Positions 446 through 3,993 of a DNA stretch of 64,000 nt are shown here, one piece after another. The translations under genes and the position numbers were made by a program. Positions within the stretch are counted from its first letter, which is position 1; each line of letters begins with the position of its first letter. The stretch covers positions 2,025,501 to 2,089,500 of the forward strand of contig NZ_CP051630.1 of assembly GCF_012848855.1 (NCBI RefSeq). The letters are read 5' to 3'. Origin of the DNA: Pyruvatibacter mobilis. GTDB lineage: Bacteria > Pseudomonadota > Alphaproteobacteria > CGMCC-115125. The notes beneath the pieces were generated by a model. The model was given only the letters and a program-made list of their open reading frames with translations, ran no database searches and was not told the DNA's origin.

Positions 446-503
446 AAAAAAGCCGCATTCCCTCAGCGCACCTCATGGAAGAGATGCGAGACGGAAGCGG
501 CTT
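446..503 (-). terminator. Intrinsic terminator in the nrtA leader
   Basis: On the minus strand AAGCCGC (497-503) pairs with GCGGCTT (450-456) and is followed by a six-T run. Inside it sits a perfect 8-bp hairpin (466-487) with loop TTCCAT. It lies just after the second hexaloop hairpin and about 60 bases before nrtA, where NasT-controlled attenuators end. Confidence 0.8.
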
Positions 504-507
504 CGCT

Positions 508-565
508 CCAGGGGCCCGCCCTTGGACCCGGTATCTGGTGGGGCACACTCGACCTTGAGGCGCCC
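508..565 (-). promoter_or_regulatory. NasT/ANTAR-responsive leader RNA: two hexaloop hairpins
   Basis: Read on the minus strand, two hairpins lie 10-13 bases apart. The first (541-565) has a 9-bp stem with one bulged U and the loop AAGGTC; the second (508-531) has GGGTCC pairing with GGGCCC around the loop AAGGGC. Both loops have six bases with A at position 1 and G at position 4, the published signature of ANTAR-protein RNA targets. The terminator follows at once. ANTAR proteins stabilise the two-hairpin form and prevent termination. NasT is encoded immediately upstream. Confidence 0.88.
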
Positions 566-577
566 GCCCTTCTCCTT

Positions 578-593
578 AGCAACGGTCGTGCCA
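578..593 (-). promoter_or_regulatory. Sigma-54 promoter of nrtA leader
   Basis: The minus strand reads TGGCACG-ACCG-TTGCT, an exact match to the sigma-54 consensus TGGCACG-N4-TTGCW with correct GG/GC spacing. The expected transcription start, about 12 bases after the GC, falls at about 567-568, just before the first hexaloop hairpin. A leader starting there would consist of little more than the two hairpins and the terminator. Confidence 0.85.
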
Positions 594-727: not shown

Positions 728-737
728 CCGTATACGG
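728..737. promoter_or_regulatory. Palindrome CCGTATACGG, candidate activator site upstream of nrtA
   Basis: A perfect 10-bp palindrome followed on the plus strand by AGGG. The same string recurs at 3091-3100 upstream of the second NasT-type leader. It lies about 160 bp upstream of the predicted sigma-54 start, a normal distance for an enhancer-binding protein. The cognate protein is unknown; it does not match the classical NtrC site. Confidence 0.4.
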
Positions 738-742
738 AGGGA

Positions 743-1330
743 TTAGAGACCGACGCGGGACGCGACGAGGATACTGTCGGCGATCTCGACGATGGGGCGC
801 TTCTGGTCCATGGAGGCCCGGCGCATGAGCGCATAGGCGTCCTTCTCGCTCAGGCCGCGCTGCTCCATCAGGATGCCCTTGGCCTTCTCGATGGTCTTGC
901 GGTGTTCAAGCTCGGTGGACAACGCTTCGACGCGGGTCTCAAGCTCGTGGAAGCGGTTGAAGCGGGCGATGGCGAGATCGACGATGGGCCTGATCCGGTC
1001 AGGCTGCATGCCGTCCACCACATAGGCGCTGACGCCCGCCTCCATGGCGGCCTGGGTCATGTCCGGGTCGCTCTGATCGACGAACATGACGACGGGACGC
1101 TGCACCTCGCGGGATACGCGGAACATCTGCTCCACCGTATCGCGCTTGGGGTTCTCGAGATCGACGATGATGACCGACGGGTTGAGCACGGCGATACGGG
1201 CGAGCAGATCAATCGTATCGGAAATGATGGTGACGTTTTCATAGCCGGCAGCCCCCAGTCCCGCGCGGATCAGCTCCGCGCGTTCGGGCATCTGGTCGAT
1301 GACGGCGATGGAAACGGGTGTGTCAGGCAT
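743..1330 (-). CDS. nasT: ANTAR-domain antitermination response regulator NasT
   Basis: 195 residues, normal NasT length. Residues 1-125 form a receiver-like domain (IAVIDQMPERAELIRAGL, then VIIVDLENP with a possible phospho-Asp). A coiled linker leads to the ANTAR domain at about 135-190 (TIEKAKGILMEQRGLSEKDAY, then LMRRAS). ANTAR proteins bind paired hexaloop hairpins in nascent RNA and stop intrinsic termination. In characterised systems NasT is held by the nitrate sensor NasS, which is not next to it here. The gene ends just upstream of the nrtA regulatory region, so read-through as well as the sigma-54 promoter may feed nrtA. A second target leader lies upstream of the beta-barrel gene. 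Confidence 0.9.
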   Translation of the reverse strand: MPDTPVSIAVIDQMPERAELIRAGLGAAGYENVTIISDTIDLLARIAVLNPSVIIVDLENPKRDTVEQMFRVSREVQRPVVMFVDQSDPDMTQAAMEAGVSAYVVDGMQPDRIRPIVDLAIARFNRFHELETRVEALSTELEHRKTIEKAKGILMEQRGLSEKDAYALMRRASMDQKRPIVEIADSILVASRVGL

Positions 1331-1596: not shown

Positions 1597-2844
1597 TCAG
1601 AGCTTCCAGTCGACCTGCAGCCAGAACTTCTGGCGGTCAGCCGGGCCGCCTGAGGGGCCGTCATAGTCCGCGTATTTCGCAGTGACCGAGAGCTTCTTGT
1701 TGATCACGCCCTTGAGGAGCAGGTCCACCTCATCACCCAGGCTGCCGCCGCCGGTCTCGGCTTCAAAGTCATGATAGATGGCGGCTGCGACGATCTTCTT
1801 GAACGGGCCGACTTCGCCCGTTGCATAGCCGATGCGGCCATAGAGATCCTCAATGCCGGTTGCCGGGGTGGCGAGGAAGACATCGGCCCAGCCCTGGAAC
1901 TTGTGCAGAGTAGCCAGCGGCGTGCTGAAGCCGCGGGTGCCGTCGCCCTCAAGCGACTCATAGCTCACCGATGCATCGAACCCGCCGACCTTGGTGCCGA
2001 TGGAGGCGAGGTAGTAGTCGAGGTCATAATCACCGGTATTGTCGCCATAGTCGGACTGGATGGCGTATTCACCGGACAGGGTGATGGGAATGTCCTCGGT
2101 GACATCGAAGGTGCCCTTGGCGCGCACGCCATAGCTCTGGGTGGAGAGCGCGGGCGATTCATCAAGGTCGAGCAGATAGCCATAGGCCCCGAGTTCAACG
2201 CCCGGCAGGCCCTTATAGGCCAAATTGACCACGTGGCTGCCCGAGGCATCGAAGCTGCCATTGGGGCTTTCATTGCCGAAGATGCGCTGCACCGAATCCA
2301 GATAGGCATATGTGGCGGTGAGGTCCGGCACCGCGGTCAGCTGAAGCAGCGCCGCATCGAAGGTCTGCTCGTTCTGGCGCCAGCCGACATTGCCGATGAA
2401 GCGGGCATTGTCGAGGATGATGCGCTGGCGGCCACCAATGAACTTGAGGCCGTCAATACCGGTATAGGTGATCTGGGCGCGGTTGAGCTCCGCATTGTCC
2501 GGGTCCGCCACAACGGGGTAGCGGGTGCGGCCATTGGTCGTGGAGTTGTAGCTGTTGTTGAGCCCGTCCACGACTTCCGCTTCCAGCAGAACGGAGAAAC
2601 CCTTGTAGGGCCGCGTCTTGAAGCCGGCGCGCACACGCGCGGTGACTGCGTTGGCATCCTCCGGCACGCCGTCCTGCGATACATGCTCGTAGCGCAGCCG
2701 CGTATCGAGGATGGGCGTGACGATGGGTTCGGTCCGCTCACTTTCGGCGGCCTGCGCGCTTGCGACAAATCCCCCGCCGGTTGCGGCCAGAAGGCCTGCC
2801 GCTATCAGCGATCCGGCTTTGGTAGTCAGTCTTTTCATGTTCAT
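1597..2844 (-). CDS. Outer-membrane beta-barrel (porin-like) protein under NasT-type leader control
   Basis: 415 residues with a signal peptide (MKRLTTKAGSLIAAGLLAA, cleavage near ASAQA). The rest is rich in alternating hydrophobic/polar strands and ends in the aromatic-rich QKFWLQVDWKL, as barrel proteins do. The pattern (LDTRLRYEHV near the N terminus, RAQITYTGIDGLKFIGGRQRI near residue 125) is that of alginate-export/phosphate-selective-porin-like families, without a firm match. A GGAG ribosome site lies 8 bases before the ATG; a second ATG two codons later is possible. The upstream region carries a sigma-54 promoter, a hexaloop hairpin and a terminator like those of nrtA, so a role in passing nitrate or nitrite through the outer membrane is inferred. 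Confidence 0.75.
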   Translation of the reverse strand: MNMKRLTTKAGSLIAAGLLAATGGGFVASAQAAESERTEPIVTPILDTRLRYEHVSQDGVPEDANAVTARVRAGFKTRPYKGFSVLLEAEVVDGLNNSYNSTTNGRTRYPVVADPDNAELNRAQITYTGIDGLKFIGGRQRIILDNARFIGNVGWRQNEQTFDAALLQLTAVPDLTATYAYLDSVQRIFGNESPNGSFDASGSHVVNLAYKGLPGVELGAYGYLLDLDESPALSTQSYGVRAKGTFDVTEDIPITLSGEYAIQSDYGDNTGDYDLDYYLASIGTKVGGFDASVSYESLEGDGTRGFSTPLATLHKFQGWADVFLATPATGIEDLYGRIGYATGEVGPFKKIVAAAIYHDFEAETGGGSLGDEVDLLLKGVINKKLSVTAKYADYDGPSGGPADRQKFWLQVDWKL

Positions 2845-2895: not shown

Positions 2896-2964
2896 AAAAA
2901 ACGCTGCGCGATGGATGACCCGTCCCGGCGGACACCCGCGGGCAGGAACATCATCGGCAGCGTT
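2896..2964 (-). terminator. Intrinsic terminator in the beta-barrel gene leader
   Basis: On the minus strand AACGCTGC (2957-2964) pairs with GCAGCGTT (2900-2907), followed by a T run. The 49 bases between the arms contain smaller hairpins (GTCC/GGAC). Same design as the nrtA attenuator: long interrupted terminator stem right after the hexaloop hairpin. Confidence 0.75.
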
Positions 2965-2971
2965 GCCAGGC

Positions 2972-2991
2972 GGGGTCCGTCCTTGGACCCC
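2972..2991 (-). promoter_or_regulatory. ANTAR-type hexaloop hairpin in the beta-barrel gene leader
   Basis: On the minus strand GGGGTCC and GGACCCC form a perfect 7-bp stem around the loop AAGGAC, with A at position 1 and G at position 4. The nrtA counterpart loop is AAGGGC. The partner hairpin expected upstream is less clear: GGTCA/TGACC at about 3001-3023 can pair but its loop does not fit the rule. The terminator begins 8 bases downstream. Confidence 0.72.
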
Positions 2992-3029
2992 GATATGTGA
3001 AGGTCACCTTGTTGTGGCCTGACCCGACC

Positions 3030-3047
3030 AAAGCACAGGCCGTGCCA
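3030..3047 (-). promoter_or_regulatory. Sigma-54 promoter of the beta-barrel gene leader
   Basis: The minus strand reads TGGCACG-GCCT-GTGCT, matching TGGCACG-N4-TTGCW with one mismatch and correct GG/GC spacing. The predicted start at about 3021-3022 lies just before the leader hairpins, exactly as for nrtA. Confidence 0.75.
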
Positions 3048-3090: not shown

Positions 3091-3100
3091 CCGTATACGG
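3091..3100. promoter_or_regulatory. Second copy of palindrome CCGTATACGG
   Basis: Identical to 728-737, including flanking ACC before and AGGG after except for one base at the start of the match. It lies about 70-80 bp upstream of the predicted sigma-54 start of the beta-barrel gene and downstream of tonB. Candidate binding site for a shared activator. Confidence 0.4.
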
Positions 3101-3183
3101 AGGGGTGACTGCGCCTGTTTGTTGTTCAGATGCCCCTTGTGCGTGCCGAAAAACCGGGCAGGCACAGCGTCGTAGCCTCCCAC

Positions 3184-3993
3184 CTAGTGAGCCAGGCTGA
3201 AAACGATAGGCAGGTTGAGCCGGTAGGGCGCACGGGGCGGCGGCGGAAAGGGCGCAGCCCGGCTGACCATGCGCTTGGCCATGCGGTCGAGGGAATATGA
3301 CCCGGACGTTCCCGTGATTGAGACCGAGGCCAGGCTGCCGTCAGGCGCGATCACGATCGCGGCGGTGGCCACGCCTTCATCGCCGCGGCGGCGGGCATCG
3401 GCAGGGTAGCGGCGCTGGCGCTCAATCCGCGCACGGAGGTCAGCCAGATAAGCGGCATCATTGTCCACGGTGCGCGTCTGCTGGCCACCGAGGCCGACGG
3501 TCGGGGCGGCGGCCCCTTCTCCCCGCGTGGGCGCGGCGGCGCGCGTGGCCGGGGCGGGCTCGGCTTCCGTCTCGGGCTGGATCACCGGCGGGGCGGGCCG
3601 GGGTGCCTGTTGCACAGGCTTTTTCGGCTGCGGCTTTTTTGGCTGCGGCTGGGGTTTCTTGAGCTTGACCGGTTTCGGTTTCACCGGCCTGGGCCTGGTC
3701 GCAGGCTTCTTCGGCTCCGGCGGTGCCTTTTCAATAACAGGGTCGGGCTCAACCGGGCTGTCGGGTTCCTCGACCGGGTCGGGATCAGGCAGGGGCGCTG
3801 ACGCGAGGTTCATGCTGATCTGCCCCAGCACGCGGCCGCCGCCGCCTGCTTTGATGTCCGGTGCCGTGTCGAGGGCGAACACCCAGGCGGCAAGTGCCGC
3901 GTGCACGAGGATGGCAAGGCCCAGCATCCAGGGCCACAGGCGCTTCAGCGGCGTGACATGTGACCGGGCGGGCGGCGCTTTTTGCGCGGTCAT
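3184..3993 (-). CDS. tonB: TonB family energy-transducing protein
   Basis: 269 residues. One N-terminal membrane anchor (LWPWMLGLAILVHAALAAWVF, residues 19-39), then a long Pro/Lys/Glu-rich periplasmic spacer (about 68-150) and a C-terminal TonB domain (about 178-269, with YLADLRARIERQRRYPADARRRG). It transmits energy from an ExbB/ExbD motor to outer-membrane receptors. It is the last gene of the haem operon and overlaps the second exbD by four bases (ATGA), so it is translationally coupled. Here it most likely serves the haem receptor encoded at the operon's start. Confidence 0.9.
   Translation of the reverse strand: MTAQKAPPARSHVTPLKRLWPWMLGLAILVHAALAAWVFALDTAPDIKAGGGGRVLGQISMNLASAPLPDPDPVEEPDSPVEPDPVIEKAPPEPKKPATRPRPVKPKPVKLKKPQPQPKKPQPKKPVQQAPRPAPPVIQPETEAEPAPATRAAAPTRGEGAAAPTVGLGGQQTRTVDNDAAYLADLRARIERQRRYPADARRRGDEGVATAAIVIAPDGSLASVSITGTSGSYSLDRMAKRMVSRAAPFPPPPRAPYRLNLPIVFSLAH

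Follow-up and report, generated by a model that had tools for sequence, protein, structure and literature searches.

The window, that is, the whole stretch of 64 kb that was analysed, carries on its minus strand a gene for an outer-membrane channel (the barrel), which is followed downstream by nasT as the next gene. The stretch at 2896-3047, in front of the barrel gene, appears from its sequence to be a NasT-type (ANTAR) transcription-antitermination leader, and a sister leader precedes nrtA. In the order of transcription, the leader and gene comprise a palindrome, a sigma-54-like site, the hairpins P0, P1 and P2, a terminator and the barrel. These features and their neighbours are as follows:

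3184-3993, minus strand: TonB-like gene, upstream of the leader
3091-3103, minus strand: palindrome CCTCCGTATACGG, which may be an upstream activator site; its centre is about 74 nt upstream of the predicted +1
3032-3047, minus strand: putative sigma-54-type -24/-12 promoter TGGCACGGCCTGTGCT, predicted +1 near 3021
3001-3020, minus strand: P0 hairpin AGGCCAC-AACAAG-GUGACCU, A1 of the loop kept and G4 lost, one C.A mismatch
2971-2992, minus strand: P1 hexaloop hairpin CGGGGUCC-AAGGAC-GGACCCCG (A1/G4), 8 bp, -16.3 kcal/mol
2955-2968, minus strand: P2 hexaloop UGGC-AACGCU-GCCG (A1/G4), overlapping the 5' arm of the terminator; putative antiterminator element
2896-2964, minus strand: predicted intrinsic terminator, interrupted stem and T6 (2896-2901)
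1597-2844, minus strand: gene for the outer-membrane channel of 415 aa, modelled as a barrel of 18 strands
743-1330, minus strand: nasT (NasT1), receiver and ANTAR domains (Pfam ANTAR 73.2 bits, Response_reg 37.3 bits)
728-740, minus strand: another copy of the palindrome CCTCCGTATACGG, upstream of the nrtA leader
446-593, minus strand: nrtA sister leader, with sigma-54 site (578-593), P0 (541-565, AAGGUC), P1 (512-529, AAGGGC), P2 (494-509, GAAGCC) and terminator (about 446-503)

The original prediction had given the barrel gene the same order of parts as nrtA, and the matching sigma-54 site, hexaloop hairpins and terminator at 446-593 confirm this. The AAGGAC hexaloop that it placed on a perfect 7-bp stem is P1, whose 8-bp stem includes those seven pairs, and the interrupted terminator is present as a long stem with its T run. 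The first hairpin does depart from the A1/G4 rule, as had been noted, with A1 but A4 in the P0 loop AACAAG. Three elements had been overlooked, namely the hexaloop at 2955-2968, the palindrome, and nasT as the next gene downstream. Because AAGGAC and the overlooked AACGCU supply a canonical A1/G4 pair in the leader, the weaker or different recognition that had been proposed need not be invoked, though it could still apply. P0 and P1 as the sole canonical ANTAR site were considered and set aside; P0 breaks G4, and P2 offers a better-placed A1/G4 hexaloop. A C:G pair closes the stem beneath the hexaloops of both P1 and P2, as in ANTAR targets, and the 3' arm of P2 is the 5' arm of the terminator, which is the known ANTAR layout. 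The linkers measure 8 nt between P0 and P1 and 2 nt between P1 and P2. The GGTCCAAGGRCGG segment of P1 has only two exact copies in the genome, both of them in the window leaders.

Both strands were scanned with a strict rule (an A1/G4 P1, then an A1/G4 P2 with its 3' arm overlapping the 5' arm of a terminator), which returned a single match in 64 kb, the barrel leader, and one match in all in 400 dinucleotide shuffles; these and the following scan figures are descriptive, because the rules were drawn up with the leader already known. Allowing A or G at loop position 1 gave three matches in the window (the barrel leader, the nrtA leader and a site at 42.7 kb) and nine in 400 shuffles, a first run of this looser rule having given one match in 60 shuffles; across 84 loci (1.0 Mb), 33 matches were found versus 2 in three shuffles of each. 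The site before the barrel has GG and GC elements near the sigma-54 consensus at -24/-12, with one mismatch, and is kept in a related genome (G003, below), but the match is not significant alone, with two sites of up to one mismatch in the window versus 0.9 per shuffle (200 shuffles). The nrtA site has no mismatch. Four strong sigma-54 activator domains were found in the source genome. Rfam at gathering thresholds reported only two tRNAs in the window and no match to the leader.

Structure prediction had been suggested as a check on the leader, and minimum-energy folds of an RNA grown from 3020 show P0, P1 and P2, and then the terminator in place of P2. All three hairpins are present at 66, 72, 78, 86 and 110 nt, P0 being rearranged at 95 nt, and P2 as drawn in these folds has one extra A-U pair closed inside its loop. 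Once the 3' arm of the terminator has emerged, at 125 nt, the terminator is predicted to replace P2, and the 141-nt RNA folds at -68.7 kcal/mol when free versus -55.4 kcal/mol with P2 forced. In the predicted folds, P2 and the intrinsic terminator are mutually exclusive.

The comparison covered four genomes of the family, all from a single genus: the source genome (G000) and G001 to G003. The orthologous barrel of G003 (75% identity over residues 11-415) is preceded by a leader with the same palindrome, a sigma-54-type counterpart (TGGCACGGTTTCTGCT), P0 (AAAGUU), P1 (AAGGAC), P2 (AACGCU, on a 6-bp stem) and terminator, the P1-P2 linker being 0 nt. Gene order in G003 is nasT2-nasS-(leader)-barrel-(second leader)-nrtA2-nrtB-nrtCD-nirB. 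The source genome has a separate nasT2-nasS-leader-nrtA2-nrtB-nrtCD-nirB cluster without the barrel; the barrel itself precedes nasT1 and nrtA1. No barrel or NasS match was found in G001 (one contig), where only a weak response-regulator match to NasT1 was obtained, and no barrel match in G002 (81% complete), which has nasT2-nasS and a sigma-54-like site at a contig end.

When the six leaders of G000 and G003 were aligned, the core pairs of P0, P1 and P2 were paired in 60 of 60 cells, 8 of them changed on both sides, and none of 500 shuffles scored as high. The base helix of the terminator covaries as well: pairing holds in 94.4% of 72 cells, and in 6 of the 13 pairs both partners are changed. 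The top three pairs of P0 are formed in all six leaders, and its closing C:G pair and loop A1 are identical throughout, with G4 in four. At the base of the terminator, all six have the P2 hexaloop with G4, which begins with A1 in four and with G1 in the two nrtA1 leaders. The middle hairpin of the G000 nrtA2 leader pairs, but without an A1/G4 loop. A covariance model (R1) found above 90 bits in the four genomes only its six founding leaders, the next match scoring 19.7 bits (E 0.08); its P1 pairs are misplaced by two columns, and divergent leaders could escape it.

The palindrome CCTCCGTATACGG occurs exactly three times in the 3.33-Mb genome, twice before the two window leaders, and is also exact before the G003 barrel leader. 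Its distance to the predicted start is about 165 nt for nrtA and about 61 nt (hand count) for the G003 barrel, next to the 74 nt given above. The third exact copy in the source genome lies at a gene junction (G000:C1:2760566). A general role as a nitrate element was rejected, because no copy with up to one mismatch occurs in the stretches, of at most 400 nt, that precede 80 other barrels; with one mismatch, the palindrome has 15 matches in the genome, hardly above the 13 of a reversed-pattern control. We regard it as a candidate activator site, with a putative role at these leaders.

The barrel models as an 18-stranded channel of the Occ/OprD/AlgE type. Its AlphaFold2 model (52 sequences) has a mean pLDDT of 89.9 and 18 strands of at least 8 residues. 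Over about residues 36-415, Occ/OprD chains match the model with Z scores of about 29-33, but at 12-19% identity, and AlgE with Z scores of about 28-30. Among the sequences of solved structures, profile A3 found no match at E up to 0.1. The Pfam family Alginate_exp (PF13372) is barely over its cut-off for the barrel (26.1 versus 25.2 bits) and is matched by 49 of the 52 aligned members at E up to 0.001; no other protein of the source genome matches PF13372. A similar predicted fold is found in OpdQ of Pseudomonas aeruginosa (3t24, Z 31.4), a nitrate-responsive channel of the OprD family. The link between nitrate and a porin is not new in itself, because OpdQ is nitrate-induced through NarXL (PMC4694141). 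Control of OpdQ is exerted via NarL, whereas the barrel described here would be governed by a predicted ANTAR-type RNA switch.

Two ANTAR proteins are encoded in the source genome, NasT1, which is in the window, and NasT2; they are 42% identical and both have the ANTAR domain. The paralogues lie at 743-1330 and at G000:C1:2630175-2631886, and only the distant one has a NasS neighbour: no NasS was found beside NasT1, and the one close NasS match in the source genome is about 0.6 Mb away, beside NasT2. A simple terminator scan of the gap between the barrel and nasT found no terminator-like site; because the same scan misses both leader terminators, co-transcription of the two genes is something that we infer. 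In the source genome, NCBIfam cut-offs are passed by NirB (nitrite reductase NirB model), by the ABC ATPases (nitrate transport NtrCD) and by the permease NrtB1 (nitrate permease); NrtB2 is the best of the matches to the permease model that fall below its cut-off (160.6 versus 209.05 bits), and the NirB of G003 passes its cut-off too. The name NasT is based on the Pfam ANTAR and receiver domains. For NrtA and NasS, Pfam gives the binding-protein family NMT1_2 and no model specific to nitrate, and they are named by gene order. By eye, the NrtA at the left edge of the window (L003:14488-15888) has a Cys/His-containing start and then a twin-arginine-like signal. Besides this nrtA, a second cluster, nrtA2BCD-nirB, is found elsewhere in the source genome.

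A wider homologue set was formed from the best 80 of 292 barrel relatives in a genome scan. Matches to nas/nrt/nir genes lie in the examined flanks of 53 of these 80 loci and nasT in those of 41, the corresponding counts being 42 and 35 for the 56 loci with at least 12.5 kb. In 22 of the 80, as in the window, the first matched gene to follow within 1.5 kb is nasT, the commonest arrangement with a named neighbour, and in 15 the barrel lies within 1.5 kb after nrtCD. A P2-terminator attenuator stands directly before the barrel in 19 of 79 regions, in 8 of them with a sigma-54-like site; the background over all loci is 0.018 per 350 nt. The proposal that the barrel is part of a NasT-type regulon is supported by its leader, by the orthologous leader in G003 and by the nas/nrt/nir genes at these 53 loci. 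Among 114 genomes of the class, 16 have the barrel (E up to 1e-60), 18 have NasT (E up to 1e-25) and 5 have both, with 2.5 expected (P 0.08); in four of the five, barrel and NasT lie within about 8 kb on one contig. A barrel family tied to nitrate or NasT throughout was discarded on this weak co-occurrence, because of which a mixed family with a nitrate-linked subset is the safest wording. At L095:5636-5741, a NasT-type leader precedes a barrel, with no nas/nrt/nirB match in flanks of about 6 kb. Four other loci (L131, L140, L143 and L144) have two hexaloop hairpins about 40-165 nt before the estimated barrel start, with no T-run terminator in a simple scan, and these perhaps serve translation control.

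Leaders were compared in a set of 29, made up of 27 of the 33 scan matches in the 84 loci and the two window leaders. Left out were the L003 copy of the window nrtA leader, a double entry of L116, the 42.7-kb window match, and L076 +1452, L109, L129 and L152, which by eye were judged not to be nitrate leaders. Within the set, L131 resembles L140 and L111 resembles L116, and the hairpin taken as P1 of the G000 nrtA2 leader (L004) corresponds to P0 in alignment A5. A third A1/G4 hexaloop lies 9-15 nt before P1 in 10 of the 29, with 0.05 expected from single-base shuffles of the upstream 60 nt (400 each). Six of the ten have A1 in all three loops, and the remaining four have a G at the start of P1 or P2. 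These three-hairpin relatives may represent a leader class of their own; alternatively, P0 could be a spare site or a relic. It is conceivable, although we hold it to be doubtful, that the NasT leaders of Alphaproteobacteria are a three-hexaloop class in which P0 and P1 (a steady 9-15 nt apart) dock a NasT oligomer and P2, at the base of the terminator, switches. NasT would then control a dedicated channel through these leaders, which would give nitrate assimilation a regulated entry point of its own in the outer membrane, and nasT, lying behind the leader, would be subject to positive feedback.

Among known systems, targets of EutV, NasR and AmiR have two successive hexaloop hairpins, the second of which occupies the 5' base of the terminator and prevents the terminator from forming (PMC3369931), and a C:G closing pair is described in a NasR selection (PMC7496416). 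The leaders of eutP (EutV) and nasF (NasR) share with the barrel leader the A1/G4 hexaloops and a second hairpin that excludes the terminator; the barrel leader differs from them in its 2-nt linker, its extra hairpin P0 and its outer-membrane channel target. Its linker compares with 5-12 nt in eut leaders, where a eutP linker shortened to 3 nt gave much weaker induction (PMC3369931), and with the 2-25 nt accepted in an actinobacterial survey (PMC8164766). In the NasS-NasT system of Paracoccus denitrificans, NasT was shown to bind the nasA leader RNA (PMC3795266; PMC5424462). That system resembles the present one in the NasT family and in leader hairpins before nitrate assimilation genes, and the barrel leader is distinguished from it by the barrel-gene target and a local NasT1 without an adjacent NasS. 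Because the leader in Paracoccus is said to consist of several hairpins in series, with data not shown there (PMC3795266), a multi-hairpin leader may not be unique to the species studied here. An NtrC regulon has been listed that includes nasT and several porins, a case of control by NtrC and not by NasT (PMC5491218), and a paper on a NasT regulon gives leader hairpins for coxS and nirA, with no porin in the section concerned (PMC6759348). The retrieved portions of the open-licence PMC literature contained neither a NasT joined to a porin of the barrel family, nor an ANTAR leader controlling such a channel, nor a three-hairpin ANTAR leader.

NasT antitermination of the barrel, perhaps together with nasT, in the service of an outer-membrane step for nitrate or nitrite has in our judgement a high probability. 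The parts, their predicted exclusion, their conservation and the nitrate linkage are read from the sequence, and NasT binding, the nitrate response, the activator, co-transcription and the substrate are the portions that we infer. The sigma-54 RNA polymerase, driven by an activator bound upstream, would start near 3021, and the nascent RNA would fold into P0, P1 and P2. When nitrate is absent, the much stronger terminator would displace P2, and transcription would end at the T run before the barrel. When nitrate is present, NasT1, or NasT2 released from NasS, would bind the hexaloops and hold P2, resulting in read-through into the channel gene and probably into nasT1 too, which would amount to positive feedback. 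The channel would then let nitrate or nitrite through the outer membrane, ahead of uptake by the NrtABC transporters. Standing against this NasT model are the 2-nt linker between P1 and P2, a NasT1 without a neighbouring NasS, the weak class-wide co-occurrence, the 27 of 80 loci without nas/nrt/nir genes, the 60 of 79 regions without an attenuator, and a sigma-54 site that is insignificant alone.

Other readings of the leader may be weighed against these points. NasT could bind P0 and P1, and not P1 and P2, so that P2 would be a switch element released indirectly; a P0 without G4 would then make the barrel leader respond weakly or differently. The P0-P1 linker, 8 nt here and 9-15 nt in the ten three-hexaloop leaders, is near that of eut leaders, and P1-P2 linkers vary from 0 to 39 nt across the 29 leaders, but we consider this arrangement unlikely, given that P2 keeps its G4 hexaloop in six of six aligned leaders, P0 has lost G4 in two, and the middle hairpin is without an A1/G4 hexaloop in one. 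That the regulator of the barrel is not the adjacent NasT1 but NasT2, released by the NasS of the distant nasT2-nasS operon, has nearly an even chance. The orthologous leader of G003 lies directly downstream of nasT2-nasS and the two NasT proteins share their ANTAR domain, but in the window the barrel stands directly before nasT1, and at 22 of the 80 homologous loci nasT comes next among the matched genes, within 1.5 kb. A terminator that acts as a constitutive attenuator, or as the end of an upstream transcript, in a manner unrelated to nitrate seems very improbable to us; lone terminators are common, but the hexaloops, the covariation, the conserved order of promoter and leader and the nitrate gene neighbourhood speak against a plain terminator, and a promoter-like site separates it from the upstream TonB-like gene.

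Under the preferred reading of NasT antitermination, nitrate control probably reaches the outer membrane, because the leader looks switch-like and relatives of the channel are often found in nitrate-uptake clusters. If true, NasT control would include the outer membrane in addition to transporters and reductases, and the barrel would be a testable candidate for how nitrate crosses the outer membrane at low concentration. The recurring three-hairpin leader may offer a way to ask how many ANTAR units engage one RNA.
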